Origin: Bdellovibrio sp. CG22_combo_CG10-13_8_21_14_all_39_27
GTDB taxonomy: Bacteria; Bdellovibrionota; Bacteriovoracia; Bacteriovoracales; Bacteriovoracaceae
Assembly (NCBI GenBank): GCA_002786715.1
Contig: PCTW01000064.1
Location: forward strand, 1 to 53,886
Length of the DNA stretch: 53,886 nt
Reading direction: 5' to 3'
The position numbers were made by a program, and so were the translations under genes. The notes beneath the pieces were generated by a model. That model searched no databases. It saw nothing but the letters and a program-made list of their open reading frames with translations, and was not told the DNA's origin. Of this stretch, positions 2,992-31,809 are shown in pieces (position 1 is the first letter of the stretch; the number at the start of each line of letters is the position of its first letter).

Positions 2992-3045
2992 AGTTCCAAC
3001 ATGCTTGTCTTTAGACGGTATTTAATGAAGGTGTGCAGGATCTAA
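2992..3045. repeat. Family-1 palindromic repeat (degenerate copy)
   Basis: Begins AGTTCCAACATGCTTGTC, continues with TTTAATGAAGGTGTGC and ends near AGGATCT, paralleling the fuller element at 27820-27873. It covers the distal end of the glycosylase remnant on the opposite strand. Confidence 0.6.
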
Positions 3046-3228
3046 ATTTGTTGCCTGCTCGCCCTTGCACTCAATCGATTCAATCACATGCCCTTTCGGG
3101 TTAAAAAGTTTAACCGTCGGATGAAAGAGCGAATCGGATACGGGAGGGTGAAAGACGTTTTCTATCTTAACCGGAAGATAGTCTTCAATTTGGCGGTGAA
3201 TGGTTTCAATTTCGGGAAGTTTGGGCAT
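3022..3228 (-). pseudogene. Truncated formamidopyrimidine-DNA-glycosylase-like gene (copy 2)
   Basis: 68 codons beginning MPKLPEIETIHRQIEDYL, which matches the start of Fpg/MutM-type DNA repair glycosylases (MPELPEVETIRRGL). Full enzymes are about 270 aa with a C-terminal zinc finger, so only the N-terminal quarter is left. The third residue, normally the catalytic glutamate, is lysine. The reading frame ends inside a family-1 repeat, suggesting the repeat lies at the deletion junction. Together with the stub at 828-890 this shows the same gene was broken twice. Confidence 0.6.
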
Positions 3229-3680: not shown

Positions 3681-3696
3681 GGAGGTAGTACCCATA
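3681..3696 (+). promoter_or_regulatory. Ribosome-binding site pointing at an ATA start codon of hamA
   Basis: GGAGG at 3681-3685 is followed, after 8 bases, by ATA at 3694 in the hamA frame. There is no ATG, GTG or TTG in that frame between the stop at 3652-3654 and the ATG at 3916, yet the whole stretch reads like protein. So either ATA is used, or an ATG has mutated. Confidence 0.45.
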
Positions 3697-4497
3697 GAAG
3701 GAGTAGTCTTAGAAGAAAAAGATAGTTGCTTAATTTGTCTTGTCACTGACTTTTCAGATGACTTACGTAAATATATTAGAGCAAACTTAATTAAAATTTG
3801 CGAGGGCCAGTATATATCTGAGCATGACCAGTTAATCTATACTTATGCGAGAACGCTAAGAGAGTTTTTAATTCGATATGATACCAAGGTAAAAGCTCCA
3901 GAAACTCAGAAAGGAATGATTGGGGAGCTTTTAGCTCATTTACTGATAGGCTATATATATAATCATCTAAGTCCTGTAAGTCCTTACTTCAATCAAGAAG
4001 AACGAAGTATTAAAAAGGGTTTCGATATAAACTTATATGATTTTAATACTGATGAACTTTGGATAGCAGAAATTAAGTCGGGAGCAGTAAACAAGGGACA
4101 AACTTCTGATGAGAAAAAACTTGGATTAATAGGTGAAGCGAAAAGAGATTTGAAAGGTCGATTAAATAGTAGCAATGCAATGCTATGGCGTAATGCTTTA
4201 ACGGGAGTACGAATCTCGTTAAATGAATCGGAGAAGACAGAATTTATCAAATCTATACTTAGCAAAAATCTAGCAAAAGCTGAAAAATCTGAGGCAATGG
4301 GGGTGAATCACAATGTAATTCTTATTTCAAATATATTCAACTCACTAGATGATCGAATAAGCCTAGAAAGTAGTATGAATCTAATGAAGAAGATTAGAGG
4401 AGAGAAGATATTTAATAAAGTAATGATTTTCTCTATTCAAAAAAAAGCATATCTAACAATCGTCGATTTTTTAAGGCAAGAATCAAGTATCATATGA
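3694..4497 (+). CDS. hamA: HamA, nuclease effector of a Hachiman anti-phage system
   Basis: DUF1837-type protein. In the family HamA is a PD-(D/E)xK DNase held inactive by HamB and released on DNA damage or phage attack. Numbering from ATA 3694, 267 aa: the GMIGELL helix carries E78, the next strand carries KGFD (D111), and WIAEIKSG carries the E126-x-K128 pair, together a nuclease active site. The first standard start is ATG 3916, giving only 193 aa and starting right at the GMIGELL helix; the 74 codons before it read as good protein with a GGAGG site upstream, so I favour the longer form. Its stop overlaps hamB as ATGA. The identification rests on the motifs plus the hamB partner. Confidence 0.75.
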   Translation: MEGVVLEEKDSCLICLVTDFSDDLRKYIRANLIKICEGQYISEHDQLIYTYARTLREFLIRYDTKVKAPETQKGMIGELLAHLLIGYIYNHLSPVSPYFNQEERSIKKGFDINLYDFNTDELWIAEIKSGAVNKGQTSDEKKLGLIGEAKRDLKGRLNSSNAMLWRNALTGVRISLNESEKTEFIKSILSKNLAKAEKSEAMGVNHNVILISNIFNSLDDRISLESSMNLMKKIRGEKIFNKVMIFSIQKKAYLTIVDFLRQESSII

Positions 4498-6962
4498 AAA
4501 AATTAAATTTAAAAGAACTAAGAAATTCAAATTTTAAAGAAATGTACTACCCGTTGCTTTGCAATGCGGAAATATCTAATGAGAAATTAATAAAACTTCT
4601 TAAAATTGCAATCGTTTTTCTTAGCGCCGATGATGATTATTTGAAAAAGCTAGGTTACAAAATTATTCTATTATATGGAAATAAAACGGGTGACTATATT
4701 CCTCTTTATGACGTTTCTCTTAATCTGGGCTATATACCCGTTTCTAAATTAATTGAAAGAAAGATGGGCAAGGAGCTATTCGGAGGGACATTCTTTAAAG
4801 AGTTCCAAGCTGCATTTCAAGAGACATTTAGAAAAAACTCTACTTATCTTAGTTTTGGGCAACAAGAATTGAATAGTAATTTTAAAAAACCTAATTCAAA
4901 TGAATCTTTTGCTGTGATTGCTCCGACCTCTTTTGGCAAATCTGAATTAATAACGTCTACATTAGATGAGGATAAAAATATTTGCATAGTGGTTCCCACC
5001 AAGGCTCTTTTGGCTCAAACGAAAAAGAGGATAATGAATTCAGAAAGCTATGCGAAAGGGCGAAAAATTGTTACACATCATGAAATGTATAATTTGGGTG
5101 ATCGAAACTTTATTGCAGTTTTAACTCAGGAAAGATTGGTTCGACTATTGCAATATGACAAGAGCTTGGCATTCGACATTGCCTTTATCGATGAAGCGCA
5201 TAACCTTCTCGATAATACTGGAAGGAACCACTTGCTAGCGACTGCAATTATGATGCTAAAGAACAGGAGCGCAAGTGTAAGAGTTCATTTTTTAACTCCA
5301 TTTTTATTAGAGGCTAACAATCTAAAGGTTAAATTTACAAGCTTTAGTTTAAAAAGCTTAAGAATTGATGAGTATATAAAAACTGAAAGAGTTCATGTTT
5401 GCGACTTTAGAGAGAATGGAGATAAGCAACTAAAGTTATATGACCCCTTTTTAAACGAGTTTACAGATTTAAAACAGGAAAAAACGTACGAGAACTATTT
5501 GGACTTATTGATTGATAAGTCGGGTAACAAAAATATCATTTACGTAAACGCTCCTAAGGATATACAGAGTTTCGCCTTGGAACTCGCCGAGCGACTTCCC
5601 GAAATTCAAGATTTTGAGATTAACAAAGCTATAGAAAGCATAGCTGATTTTTTAGATGTAAACTACTCTCTTTTGAAATGCATGAAAAATGGTGTCATCT
5701 ATCATCATGGAGCAGTGCCTGACAATGTTAAATTATATATTGAGAATTTGTTTTCAAGTTGTAGAGACTTAAAATATATTGTGACGAATACGACTCTTTT
5801 AGAGGGAGTGAATATACCTGCAGACAAGTTGTTTTTAAAATCAGGAAAAGTTGGAAAAACAAAACATTTAACAGCGGCACAATTGAAGAATTTAATAGGT
5901 CGAGTCTGTCGTTTTAAAGAAGTATTTGATGAAAGTTCTGGAAATTTGAAACTATTGGAACCTGAAGTTTTTTTCCTTGGATCAGATTGCTACACAAAGA
6001 AAAAACCGAAAAGTTTACCTGATTTTATTAAGGATAGACTTAAAATTGATAAAAAATTAAAAGAAAAAGCAGAAAACCTCTTGCTTGAAAACAGTGATAG
6101 GACTGAAGACAACAAACTCGAAAGGGATAAGCTTGAAGATTTTTTAGAAAACGTAGAACCTAATATAACTGGACGTCGAGATGGAAACTATGCAGCGACA
6201 GAAGTTGGAAAGTTGTGCTTTCAACATAACATACTAGAGTTTGACATCGTAGAAAATGAAGTAGCAATTCAAACCGTTGTTGATGACTTAAGAGCTAATA
6301 ATTATGTTGCTTTATCATCTAATGAATTAATAGAGCTTATGAATAACCTTTTTTTTAAATTTATACCAAGCAACAGTAAGGATCGCGTTATTCTGCGCTT
6401 AAAGGAGAAAGATAAAGCTAGAGATTTTTATGCAATGTTTTTTGAAAAGAAAATGGCAAACCCTTCTTATAAACAGATGATTGCAAGTTTTGTTTTCCAT
6501 TGGAACAAAACCCTAGAAAGGAAAAAAAACGAGGCTTTTGTATATGTTGGGAGATGGGGAGATAGTAACAGAGGAGCAGGGGGATATTATAAAGACTGGG
6601 TCAACCTTTGGGGAAAAAGCGATGCAGTCAAAGTTAATCTTGCAATAGTAAGAATTAAAGAAGAGCAAGAATTTGTTAGCTATATGCTTATGAAATTTGT
6701 GGAAGTTATTAATGACTTATCATTGATAAATGGAGATACGTACCTGAAAATTAAATTTTCAACATCAGACCCATATAAAATACTACTTATTAGAAATGGC
6801 TTTAGTTCATCTCTTTCTACATTGCTTATAAATAAATATAAAGAATATCTATCTATAAATTTAGTTAATAATACTGTGACTATTAAACCTGGGCTATATG
6901 ATAAAATGAAAGAATATAGAGAAAGTGAAATTTTAATACATGAAGTAACATACATTGCGTAG
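4494..6962 (+). CDS. hamB: HamB, superfamily 2 helicase of a Hachiman anti-phage system
   Basis: 822 aa. Helicase motifs in order: APTSFGKS (Walker A, 143-150), VPTKALLAQ (Ia, 168-176), IDEAH (232-236), LTPF in the motif III place (267-270), YHHGAVP (403-409), TNTTLLEGVNIPAD (431-444) and NLIGRVCRF (466-474). This Ski2-like layout with DEAH box is typical of HamB, which scans DNA and controls the HamA nuclease. The ~350-residue C-terminal part is unmatched to a named domain by eye. It is translationally coupled to hamA by ATGA overlap. No disruption is visible, so the pair could be functional if hamA is translated. Confidence 0.82.
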   Translation: MKKLNLKELRNSNFKEMYYPLLCNAEISNEKLIKLLKIAIVFLSADDDYLKKLGYKIILLYGNKTGDYIPLYDVSLNLGYIPVSKLIERKMGKELFGGTFFKEFQAAFQETFRKNSTYLSFGQQELNSNFKKPNSNESFAVIAPTSFGKSELITSTLDEDKNICIVVPTKALLAQTKKRIMNSESYAKGRKIVTHHEMYNLGDRNFIAVLTQERLVRLLQYDKSLAFDIAFIDEAHNLLDNTGRNHLLATAIMMLKNRSASVRVHFLTPFLLEANNLKVKFTSFSLKSLRIDEYIKTERVHVCDFRENGDKQLKLYDPFLNEFTDLKQEKTYENYLDLLIDKSGNKNIIYVNAPKDIQSFALELAERLPEIQDFEINKAIESIADFLDVNYSLLKCMKNGVIYHHGAVPDNVKLYIENLFSSCRDLKYIVTNTTLLEGVNIPADKLFLKSGKVGKTKHLTAAQLKNLIGRVCRFKEVFDESSGNLKLLEPEVFFLGSDCYTKKKPKSLPDFIKDRLKIDKKLKEKAENLLLENSDRTEDNKLERDKLEDFLENVEPNITGRRDGNYAATEVGKLCFQHNILEFDIVENEVAIQTVVDDLRANNYVALSSNELIELMNNLFFKFIPSNSKDRVILRLKEKDKARDFYAMFFEKKMANPSYKQMIASFVFHWNKTLERKKNEAFVYVGRWGDSNRGAGGYYKDWVNLWGKSDAVKVNLAIVRIKEEQEFVSYMLMKFVEVINDLSLINGDTYLKIKFSTSDPYKILLIRNGFSSSLSTLLINKYKEYLSINLVNNTVTIKPGLYDKMKEYRESEILIHEVTYIA

Positions 6963-7043: not shown

Positions 7044-7105
7044 AAATATTGAGATTAGGAAAGCTATAAAGAATACATTTAAACCGTCTTGTATTTGCAT
7101 ATAAT
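7044..7105 (+). promoter_or_regulatory. Promoter region and left direct repeat of the 339-aa gene
   Basis: TATAAT at 7100-7105 lies 11 bp before the ATG at 7117, so the mRNA would have almost no leader. The block AAATATTGAGATT (7044-7056) followed by CTTGTATTTG (7088-7097) recurs at 8138-8169 right after the gene. Confidence 0.45.
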
Positions 7106-7116
7106 ATTAGGAAAAT

Positions 7117-8136
7117 ATGAATAGAGAATATTACGAAGCTAAGTTTTTTCAAGATTATAATCCTAATCCCGTATTTGCGGAGATTTCGACTGGGAACTGG
7201 GTCTATGCTTTAGCCAATACGATTAAGCTTGTTCATGGTAATGGCCCTATTGAATGGAGAACAAGTATTTCAAATGCCTTTGAGAGGATTCAAAATGTTA
7301 ACGATTTTCCTCTTATACACCGCTCAATGAGGGCTTTGTCTCAGGGACTTTCTTTGACATTATCTCTAGAGGCCAGAAAAGAAAATTTTACCCCTTGGCA
7401 TACTGTTGGTTTGATTTCTGACTTTTATTATTCAATTACAAACATATTTGATGTGATAATAATGGGTCAAGTCGATTCTACTTATGAGGATCATACAACG
7501 CGGATTAGGCATTTTGATGGATTGAGATCTCTTTTCCCTCATCCATTTGACATGATTTCATCGTTCTATGATGGATCAGGGTGGAGAAATACTTTGCTTG
7601 TTTCAAAAGAACATTTTCGTTTTGAATTTCCAAGTTTGGATTATAGAACTACCAATTCATCTGAAGGCTTAATCAATGAATGGCATGATTCTATTAACAC
7701 AAGTTTAGCGAAAGATATTTTACTTGGATATTTAAGAGGGACTACTGGATTTCTTTGGGAAATGAAGCGAGAAACATATAAGAAACAAAAAAGTATTCCT
7801 TCGATAAGGAGACAAGAACATAAAGATGAATTGAATCCAAAACTTAAACGAATGAGGATAAATTTTTTGAATTGCTTGTATCGCTACAGAACTAAAGCTC
7901 ACTATAGAGATTTTATATATTTAACTGCAGATCAATATGAGCCTTCAATTCATAAAAAAAATATTTACATCGATAATCGATTCATTGAATCTTTATTTTT
8001 GATTTCTAACTTTTCAGTCTGTGTCGCATTAAAGTATTTGTCTGCAAAAATAGGAGTGAGAAATACTCAAACCTTATTGCTCGCTTTGGAGGGAAAACTT
8101 AAATTACATAACAGTCCGTGGAATGGCTTTTTGTAG
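7117..8136 (+). CDS. Unrecognised 339-aa protein beside the Hachiman genes
   Basis: No family recognised. The protein is soluble, largely helical, rich in aromatic residues, with no signal peptide. A conspicuous element is LYRYRTKAHYRDF at residues 254-266: arginine, short spacer, then AHY resembles the R-x(3-6)-H motif of HEPN ribonucleases, but the rest of a HEPN fold cannot be confirmed by eye. It has its own TATAAT promoter with a very short leader, and its ends are bracketed by matching 13-bp and 10-bp direct repeats, as if it were a cassette. It lies 154 bp after hamB on the same strand. A defence role is inference from location. Confidence 0.7.
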   Translation: MNREYYEAKFFQDYNPNPVFAEISTGNWVYALANTIKLVHGNGPIEWRTSISNAFERIQNVNDFPLIHRSMRALSQGLSLTLSLEARKENFTPWHTVGLISDFYYSITNIFDVIIMGQVDSTYEDHTTRIRHFDGLRSLFPHPFDMISSFYDGSGWRNTLLVSKEHFRFEFPSLDYRTTNSSEGLINEWHDSINTSLAKDILLGYLRGTTGFLWEMKRETYKKQKSIPSIRRQEHKDELNPKLKRMRINFLNCLYRYRTKAHYRDFIYLTADQYEPSIHKKNIYIDNRFIESLFLISNFSVCVALKYLSAKIGVRNTQTLLLALEGKLKLHNSPWNGFL

Positions 8137-8137
8137 G

Positions 8138-8169
8138 AAATATTGAGATTGCATCTAAACTTGTATTTG
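8138..8169 (+). repeat. Right direct repeat of the 339-aa gene cassette
   Basis: AAATATTGAGATT (8138-8150) and CTTGTATTTG (8160-8169) exactly repeat the two blocks at 7044-7056 and 7088-7097, with a shorter spacer (9 instead of 31 bases). The gene 7117-8136 lies between them. Confidence 0.6.
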
Positions 8170-8229: not shown

Positions 8230-8252
8230 AATTCCAGCACATTTGTCCTTAT
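8230..8252. repeat. Family-1 repeat (half element)
   Basis: AATTCCAGCACATTTGTCC followed by TTAT matches the left half of the family-1 palindrome. It lies between the convergent 3' ends of the 339-aa gene and the next minus-strand gene. Confidence 0.6.
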
Positions 8253-8332
8253 CTAAGGCTTCTTAAGGAGAACATGTTCTACACTGCTTATGAGATAAAT
8301 GTTGGAACAACAGTTGATTATAAAAGATATAT

Positions 8333-8986
8333 TTATTTAATTTTAGGTCCAATATTTGCGAGAGCTTTTAAGGTTTTCTTGCCCCATTTTAAAAGAAATA
8401 ATTGATAATTATCCGGTATGTCTGCATTGTAATTTTCAAAAAAATGTTCAATTTGCTTCACGGTTAATTCACTATATCTTCGTTTTTCTAAAGCGAGTTT
8501 ATCGATATCTTCGTAGAAGTAAATGTTCTTTTTTTCTTGGCCTTGCTTAGCAGTATCTGAGATTTCTTGAAAAGCTAAAGATGAATCATTTAATACCTTT
8601 TTTAAGCCCGCACAAAGAGAACGCAGTGTTTCTCTGTATTGTGATTCTTCTTGGAGATCTAATTCAAGTTTTTGCTTTGCTCGTGAAATTCTATAATCAC
8701 TACGATTTATCCACCAATTATACCACTCTTTTAGGATTGGCATGATCAGCAAATAAGCCAAAGTTAATAACAAAGGATATATAACTAAAGGAAGAAGTGA
8801 ATTTTTGCTTGTGATATAAAGGTTGATAACTGAGATTCTATCTTGCTCTGGAGTTGTTCCAAAAACTAAAATTATAGGTACTTGCCAGTTCGTAATAAAC
8901 CAAATTAAAGAAAAAGTTCCAGAGATTGGATTTTTTACTCGTTCAGCAAGTGCATCATATATATTTAAGTTGAAGTTTTCTTCCAT
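8333..8986 (-). CDS. Hypothetical membrane protein with two transmembrane helices
   Basis: 217 aa. Two hydrophobic segments, about residues 24-42 (FSLIWFITNWQVPIILVF) and 65-88 (LPLVIYPLLLTLAYLLIMPI), are followed by a tryptophan-rich interface (EWYNWW) and a charged, probably coiled-coil cytoplasmic tail of ~120 residues. No enzymatic motif is visible. It faces the 339-aa gene and is the last gene before the repeat-rich end of the AT-rich island. Proteins of this shape occur near phage-defence genes, but I cannot assign a family. Confidence 0.65.
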   Translation of the reverse strand: MEENFNLNIYDALAERVKNPISGTFSLIWFITNWQVPIILVFGTTPEQDRISVINLYITSKNSLLPLVIYPLLLTLAYLLIMPILKEWYNWWINRSDYRISRAKQKLELDLQEESQYRETLRSLCAGLKKVLNDSSLAFQEISDTAKQGQEKKNIYFYEDIDKLALEKRRYSELTVKQIEHFFENYNADIPDNYQLFLLKWGKKTLKALANIGPKIK

Positions 8987-9069: not shown

Positions 9070-9149
9070 GGTTCCATCGCTTGTCCTTAGTAGAATAAAG
9101 TACCAACACACTTGTCCTTAAACTCTTTATTATGATATGTGTGGGAACT
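9070..9149. repeat. Two adjacent family-1 repeats
   Basis: The first, degenerate copy (GGTTCCATCGCTTGTCC, 9070-9086) is a half element. The second runs from GTACCAACACACTTGTCC at 9099 to GTGTGGGAAC ending about 9148, so both terminal arms are present and can pair. They lie in the 262-bp gap between two minus-strand genes, which otherwise holds no gene. Confidence 0.65.
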
Positions 9150-9195
9150 CTTATTGTATTACTTTCAAACATAATGAAGAGCCTATGTAAAATAA

Positions 9196-9235
9196 GGCTC
9201 CATCCAGCACGCTTGTCCTTAAGCAGTGCGAGAAG
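9196..9235. repeat. Family-1 repeat
   Basis: Contains CAGCACGCTTGTCCTTAAGC followed by AGTGCGAG, matching the core of the element at 27820-27873. It lies just past the 3' end of the MerR-type gene. Confidence 0.6.
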
Positions 9236-9248
9236 TGGAAAATTGGGC

Positions 9249-9653
9249 TTATTTTTTATGCGTTTTTAACTGCTTTTTTGTCGCAAGAGAAAGAAGGCGT
9301 TGAAATGTCGGGCACTCTAAATGACTAGGGGCTTTGCAATTACCGGCATGTATTAACCCGTCTCTAACAGCCTCCAGTCGCTTTATTTTCTTATCAATCT
9401 CCATTGCCTTTTTCTTTAAGTGAGATTTATCTAATAGGATTTTTTTTTGATTTTTAAATAACTGATTAAGCTCGTCCAAGGAAAAACCAGCTTGTTTTGC
9501 CAATGTTATGAGCGCTAGTTTCTGTAGAACGTTTGAATGGTACTGACGTCTAAGCCCAACTCTTCCAGTTGATCCGATAAGGCCCTTTTCTTCATAATAT
9601 CTTAGGGTAGAGGTTGAGATACCTGATTTTTTTGAAACTACGCCAATATCCAT
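9249..9653 (-). CDS. MerR-family transcriptional regulator
   Basis: 134 aa from MDIGVVSKKSG (start 9653, GAGGAGA site 7 bases upstream; an ATG at 9683 is less likely). Residues 1-70 form the winged helix (STLRYYEEKGLI and RQYHSNVLQKL), then a dimerisation helix (about 78-110). The C-terminal end has two cysteines (GNCKAPSHLECPTF), a possible metal or redox site; it lacks the four-cysteine iron-sulfur pattern of SoxR. It is divergent from the cupin/permease operon, whose promoter carries a typical MerR operator, so it very likely controls that operon and perhaps itself. Confidence 0.88.
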   Translation of the reverse strand: MDIGVVSKKSGISTSTLRYYEEKGLIGSTGRVGLRRQYHSNVLQKLALITLAKQAGFSLDELNQLFKNQKKILLDKSHLKKKAMEIDKKIKRLEAVRDGLIHAGNCKAPSHLECPTFQRLLSLATKKQLKTHKK

Positions 9654-13222: not shown

Positions 13223-13260
13223 AGTTCCAACACACTTGTCATTAAGCGCGCTTGATGAAT
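13223..13260. repeat. Family-1 repeat
   Basis: GTTCCAACACACTTGTCATT followed by AAGCGCGCTTGATGAAT. The inner AAGCGCGCTT is itself a palindrome. It lies between two divergent genes, upstream of the LolA-like operon, so this copy is not at a 3' end. Confidence 0.6.
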
Positions 13261-13379
13261 TTAAGATGGCAAGTGGTTGAAATATCTACATTTTAAATGA
13301 TTGTATAATCGTCTTATCGTTGCTTTAATTTCTCTTAATATACTGGATTTAAAGGACCCTTTTCAAGGTAGTGGAAACT

Positions 13380-27819: not shown

Positions 27820-27873
27820 AAGTTCCAGCACACTTGTCCTTAAGCAGTGCTTAATGAAAGGTGGGCCGGAACT
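27820..27873. repeat. Family-1 palindromic repeat, near-complete copy
   Basis: Runs from AGTTCCAGCACACTTGTCC to GGTGGGCCGGAACT. The terminal arms (AGTTCC...GGAACT, with CCAC-type inner pairing) and an inner hairpin TTAAGC-AGT-GCTTAA are intact. It fills the gap between the ars operon and the converging barrel gene and could act as a terminator for both. Confidence 0.7.
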
Positions 27874-27880
27874 AGAGAAT

Positions 27881-31509: not shown

Positions 31510-31754
31510 CGGGTCTGGGTATTCATCTGCAAAGCTTGAAAACTGATCTCCTGTAATATCATTATCATCTGAGCCGATATTTTTAATATTGTCCTCTCTA
31601 ATCTATAACTCTGGTTAAGAATAATTAACTATCGTCATTTTGATGTCTTACTTTAATAGGATAGAAGGTAAATTTTTGAAAAACTTCACTTCTGGTCTCT
31701 GGTGATTTTATCCACTTAAATAATATTTATGTTCCAATTGATTGTGGATTAAAA

Positions 31755-31798
31755 ATTCCAACACATTTGCCCTTATGATCAGAGTAATGTGTTGGAAC
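31755..31798. repeat. Family-1 palindrome, complete hairpin
   Basis: ATTCCAACACATT at the left pairs with AATGTGTTGGAA(C) at the right around a 17-nt middle (TGCCCTTATGATCAG). This is the most symmetric copy. It lies directly past the 3' end of the NmrA-like gene and probably terminates it. Confidence 0.75.
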
Positions 31799-31809
31799 CC
31801 CAATTCTTT

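Follow-up and report, generated by a model that had tools for sequence, protein, structure and literature searches.

We describe a family of bacterial proteins represented by P0001, the product of a gene next to a Hachiman defence system in a Bdellovibrio genome. With moderate confidence, we propose that P0001 acts in phage defence as an abortive-infection effector, encoded by a single gene, built on a HEPN fold and probably acting on RNA. The existence of the family, its conserved residues, a HEPN-like fold in structural models and mobile, defence-rich genomic contexts support this proposal. The window, i.e. the whole stretch of DNA that was analysed, spans 53,886 bases from the start of a contig 158,815 bases long. 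The 339-amino-acid gene marked in the initial annotation is real, with its open reading frame at 7117–8136. The features of the gene and its surroundings are as follows.

3694–4497, plus strand: probable HamA, from the frame translation, the position and a D...AEIK-type motif
4494–6962, plus strand: HamB helicase of Hachiman (PADLOC HamB, E 1.4e-64), 154 nt upstream of the P0001 gene
7044–7097, plus strand: upstream repeat pair AAATATTGAGATT ... CTTGTATTTG, 31 nt between the words
7109–7112, plus strand: AGGA, probable ribosome-binding site of the P0001 gene, from reading of the sequence
7117–8136, plus strand: P0001 gene, 339 aa, HEPN-fold candidate (open reading frame, family alignments, model fold)
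7492–7494, plus strand: codon of H126, candidate alternative active-site histidine (61 of 61 members; position compared with PMC3710099)
7882–7908, plus strand: codons of R256-Y-R-T-K-A-H-Y-R264, the conserved block of the family, including R258 and H262
8138–8169, plus strand: downstream repeat pair AAATATTGAGATT ... CTTGTATTTG, 9 nt between the words

A rare and widely scattered family

Single-sequence searches of Pfam, NCBIfam, PHROGs, PADLOC and PDB with P0001 gave no match, and single-sequence scans of genome and viral contigs found no close relatives. Homologues at 49% and 32% identity were recovered by a search within the order, and tblastn revealed distant plasmid-borne homologues at 23–26% identity over most of the protein. 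An alignment of nine sequences, used as query, identified 63 loci on genome contigs and 13 on viral contigs; the search pattern for the genome-contig loci demanded RYR[GT]K[AF][NH]Y, while H126 and other residues were not demanded. The family as a whole has no significant sequence match in Pfam, NCBIfam, PADLOC, PHROGs or PDB.

Members were assigned to Pseudomonadota, Bdellovibrionota, Planctomycetota, Armatimonadota, Nitrospirota, Elusimicrobiota, Verrucomicrobiota, Acidobacteriota, Cyanobacteriota, Bacteroidota, Campylobacterota and others, many of the genomes being metagenome-assembled, and individual phylum assignments can be wrong. The gene is present in 3 of 369 Bdellovibrionota genomes, in 2 of 395 genomes from the order that includes Vibrio pectenicida, and in 42 of 5,426 E. 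coli genomes; among the genomes searched, the nearest relatives of the source genome that carry it are Bacteriovoracaceae. The family is rare, sparse, horizontally spread and mostly stand-alone. A literature search by name for the E. coli homologue WP_000049501 found no mention. Relative to the profile libraries searched the family is new; in kind it is ordinary, a mobile HEPN-type defence candidate.

Conserved residues

In 61 aligned members, W28, Y105, H126, P143, Y205, G208, R256, Y257, R258, K260, Y263 and R264 are invariant. For the RYRxKxxYR block this invariance arises partly by construction, as loci were selected by the motif; the nine-sequence alignment shows the block without motif selection and provides the unbiased basis. 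A counter-example to invariance is a relative in genome G615, found by profile, which lacks H126 and has lost most of the arginine block.

The initial annotation had noted an element RTKAHY, which is present at residues 258–263, and had read R258-x3-H262 as reminiscent of HEPN RNases. The R258-x3-H262 pair is not the family signature: position 262 is asparagine in 56 of the 61 members and histidine in five, and the residue has changed at least three times on the tree. The window protein also has R256-x5-H262, of the Rx4-6H form, with the same asparagine in most other members; part of the HEPN superfamily lacks this histidine (PMC3710099). From the alignments, H126 and the RYRxKxxYR block are stronger signature candidates than R258 and H262. 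The initial annotation would have counted homologues outside defence contexts without the R/H residues as a refutation, and this applies by half: H262 is lost from most homologues, but the arginines and H126 are kept, and the contexts are still defence-related or mobile.

Predicted fold

Two AlphaFold2 models were compared with PDB structures. For the model with the window protein first (pLDDT 82), the best re-aligned chains were 3c18 (Z 5.9), the helical part of a nucleotidyltransferase-like protein, and 8xeh_B (Z 5.3), the HEPN protein of a HEPN-MNT complex. The model with a central family member (L053) first was better (pLDDT 93.2, pTM 0.91) and aligned with 126 of 126 residues of 2hsb, the AF_0298 HEPN protein (Z 10.4, rmsd 2.8), and with 128 of 139 residues of 3o10, the sacsin HEPN domain (Z 8.6); the next unrelated PDB row had Z 5.6, and a Z near 10 between helical bundles can reflect a common arrangement. 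In these predicted structures, the top two PDB entries for each of the two models are HEPN-type domains, and an all-helical HEPN core is seen in both members modelled.

At the sequence level, PF05168 (HEPN) is the Pfam family matched by most members, with weak matches in 6 of 61 (best E 0.0029) that cover helix 2 and the following histidine. The best score was 18.2 bits against a curated cut-off of 22, and profile-profile alignment with hhalign against 28 PF05168 proteins returned nothing, the probabilities being 0.1–0.2%. For no HEPN family did a profile match exceed its curated cut-off. Because the Pfam matches fall below the cut-off and there is no profile-profile match, we call the fold HEPN-like and do not file the family under PF05168. 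The suggestion of a HEPN-like protein in the initial annotation, which had proposed an HHpred-type search as a check, is borne out by independent comparison of the models: the profile-profile link did not materialize, whereas HEPN domains came out on top in the structural comparison.

A different reading would make P0001 an all-helical protein with no relation to HEPN, its resemblance to HEPN domains being a chance likeness of helical bundles. The missing profile-profile similarity to PF05168 fits such a reading, as does the outcome of Foldseek searches against PDB and viral models, which gave no significant match and none below E 0.2. Against it stand the HEPN-type domains in the top two places for each of two models, the full-domain coverage of the better model with its clear gap to unrelated helical proteins, and the weak PF05168 matches together with the matching position of the invariant histidine. 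We regard chance resemblance as very unlikely, and favour a HEPN-like core.

A candidate active site and the closest known families

In AbiV and the AF_0298 family the histidine of Rx4-6H is missing, and there is another conserved histidine between helices 2 and 3 (PMC3710099), which could form a site with the basic residue of the Rx4-6H motif (Anantharaman et al. 2013, PMC3710099). In the predicted structure, H126 lies just after two long helices, and R256 and R258 lie on a later helix. The arrangement of the HEPN-T/AbiV type, with H126 and R256/R258, is present in 61 of 61 members as far as residue positions go. A HEPN-type activity is favoured mainly because the best structural neighbour and the residue pattern agree.

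The best structural neighbour is AF_0298 HEPN-T (PF05168, 2hsb), all 126 residues of which are spanned by the predicted core. Like HEPN-T, the P0001 family has a conserved histidine after helix 2 and basic residues on a later helix (PMC3710099). However, P0001 family proteins are ∼320–350 aa long, with an N-terminal extension and inserts, compared to ∼130 aa for HEPN-T; they have the RYRxKxxYR block in place of the RYP motif, and they have neither an MNT partner nor a profile match above cut-off. AbiV, the HEPN protein of Lactococcus abortive infection, is likewise a stand-alone defence gene that lacks the Rx4-6H histidine and has an alternative histidine at the AF_0298 position (PMC3710099), but no P0001 family member matched any AbiV model, and the likeness is one of description. 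A third comparison is the HEPN protein of PDB entry 3jrt, which resembles the P0001 family in being a HEPN fold on gammaproteobacterial integron cassettes (Anantharaman et al.). Unlike the P0001 family, the 3jrt family keeps Rx4-6H (PMC3710099), and the P0001-family profile searched against PDB sequences gave no match to 3jrt.

The protein might instead bind RNA or nucleotides through a HEPN fold and not be a nuclease, for example as a factor through which mobile elements confer immunity or exert regulation (superinfection control). Such a role would agree with the asparagine that most members have in place of the usual catalytic histidine (56 of 61) and with the frequent carriage of the gene on prophages and plasmids; moreover, some HEPN domains without the motif are thought to bind substrates (PMC3710099). 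The invariance of H126 and the arginines across very distant members is more typical of an active site, and we consider a purely binding role unlikely compared with an active effector.

Mobile and defence-rich contexts

The initial annotation had placed the gene in a defence island, and this association is upheld by the contexts of the homologues and by the Hachiman neighbour. In E. coli, copies are found in prophages, beside an integrase, a type II restriction-modification pair and a GIY-YIG protein, and Klebsiella copies reside on IncFIB replicons with phage-type genes (phage-plasmid-like). Across enterobacterial genera, the gene and its surroundings from about −251 to +145 are ∼99% identical, which indicates recent transfer of a single-gene unit. 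In Vibrio europaeus the copy is an integron cassette in an array that also holds DUF3265 cassettes; the anti-phage gene Hhe is two genes away, and VCR-like attC sites, which we take to be VCR, lie on both sides. Other direct neighbours encode a TIR protein (in Bacteriovoracia), Mrr_cat, DUF499/HEPN_Swt1 and AAA_13 proteins, and a Schlafen AlbA_2 protein with a recombinase-like gene. With 149 proteins in each set and E ≤ 1e-10, near neighbours matched 191 PADLOC models and far neighbours 65, a coarse measure since it counts models and not proteins. The neighbourhood is enriched in defence genes, and no recurrent partner gene was found around the homologues.

Two arrangements of neighbouring genes were observed in addition. 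The 32%-identity homologue from Bacteriovoracia shares its first 4 nt with the gene of a TIR-domain protein (PF13676, E 2e-13; L021 3880–4980, L144 10260–11360), and the two may form a pair of TIR and HEPN-like proteins. In an alphaproteobacterium, a 1,100-aa DUF499/HEPN_Swt1 protein overlaps the homologue start (L028 6639–9941).

The relation to Hachiman

In the window, P0001 follows the Hachiman pair. Upstream of its called ATG (3916), the HamA frame stays open to about 3694, with no ATG, GTG or TTG start in between; GGAGGT is followed after 7 nt by ATA, which may be a rare ATA start or point to an assembly error. The 193-aa C-terminal part of the probable HamA has no Pfam match. Upstream of Hachiman, at 1889–2932 of the window, lies a gene for a 347-aa HNH endonuclease that matches PADLOC mREase_IV (E 1.3e-21; type IV methyl-directed restriction), and judging from this match one more defence gene may be present in the island.

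It could be argued that P0001 is an accessory part of Hachiman, an extra effector or regulator under HamAB control. The gene lies 3' of HamB on the same strand, and a second case comes from G615, in which an operon (L143 7611–13365, minus strand) encodes an MBL nuclease, a trypsin-HamA fusion and HamB, followed directly by the degenerate P0001 relative. The HamMAB layout has been described (PMC12799240), and the gene order in G615 corresponds to it. However, these are the only two cases among ∼80 loci, no HamA/HamB-like neighbours were found elsewhere except for one weak helicase match in L067, and the G615 relative is the divergent one without H126 and most of the arginine block. Furthermore, the P0001 gene is separated from HamB by 154 nt and has its own ribosome site. 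P0001 is no known component of Hachiman, most homologues have no Hachiman nearby, and HEPN was not mentioned in the Hachiman papers searched. The co-occurrence is too infrequent for a regular Hachiman component, and an accessory role is quite unlikely; the stand-alone effector remains the preferred reading.

Flanking repeats and promoter

The initial annotation had described the gene as a cassette framed by direct repeats, with its own TATAAT promoter. Both repeat words do occur before and after the gene, in the same order and as exact copies, AAATATTGAGATT at 7044–7056 and 8138–8150 and CTTGTATTTG at 7088–7097 and 8160–8169. The copies are out of register: 31 nt separate the two words upstream of the gene, and 9 nt separate them downstream. 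In 5,000 dinucleotide shuffles, a 13-nt exact match between the 150-nt flanks of P0001 arose three times and the gapped similarity score was reached 32 times, before correction for the number of genes, of which there are ∼50 in the window. In the same test the neighbouring gene at 8333–8986 outscores P0001, because of a separate repeat family there. The repeat pairing around P0001 is suggestive of a mild excess over chance and is not compelling.

Across the genome the 13-mer AAATATTGAGATT occurs six times. Two of the occurrences flank P0001, and two others lie inside dnaA and a fatty-acid desaturase gene with most of CTTGTATTTG nearby. Pairs of this kind thus come about with no mobile element involved. 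A genome-wide mobile element made up of the repeat words was rejected on the basis of its four genomic matches, two of them within ordinary genes. Flanks resembling the P0001 repeats were absent at all three homologous loci examined. The repeats lend the cassette claim little support: they are marginal, and there is no sign that they mobilise the gene. The promoter fares no better, as promoter-like matches are at background level (7, TATAAT among them, versus 6.6 expected). TATAAT is at 7100–7105, with TTTAAA 16 nt upstream of it, and ends 11 nt 5' of the ATG, overlapping the AGGA ribosome-site region. On the whole, the initial annotation came close in its conclusion, though most of its reasons failed.

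An integron gene cassette was also considered for the window copy and rejected: no attC sites were seen around the gene, the flanking words are unlike attC, and the contig has no tyrosine recombinase.

The window contains a family of imperfect palindromes, in which a conserved arm, AGTTCCAACACACTTGTCCTTAA, pairs with a variable arm. Eight copies (≤3 mismatches) were found, at 2992–3048, 8230–8310, 9099–9152, 9198–9252, 13223–13283, 27821–27875, 30446 and 31754–31803, all on the plus strand, all intergenic and all in the first 33 kb. No copies were found on the minus strand or in the remaining 126 kb of this contig, and contig C82 has a few more. The family is similar to an attC cluster that lacks an integrase, or to a MITE, but does not have the strict attC ends.

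Proposed mode of action and significance

The P0001 protein would have a four-helix HEPN core, to which inserts and a helical extension at the N-terminus are added. It would be kept inactive or at a low level before infection and be triggered by phage infection. The effector would then cut or bind RNA via a HEPN-like site formed by H126 and R256-Y-R-x-K-x-x-Y-R264, and this attack on RNA would stop translation and growth. In this scheme we infer the RNA target, catalysis, trigger, growth arrest and the anti-phage activity itself. A broader proposal, which we put forward tentatively and regard as possible though doubtful, is that of a mobile single-gene HEPN-fold defence family in which an H126/RYRxKxxYR site replaces Rx4-6H, and which moves with integron cassettes, prophages and phage-plasmids and serves Hachiman as an extra effector in some lineages.

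HEPN proteins are a main class of bacterial abortive-infection effectors. With its invariant residues, the P0001 family offers a way to test directly the alternative HEPN active site that was put forward for AbiV and AF_0298 in 2013. If the defence role is true, the family would add a testable single-gene candidate that the profile libraries searched have missed and that is found across many phyla as well as in E. coli prophages.
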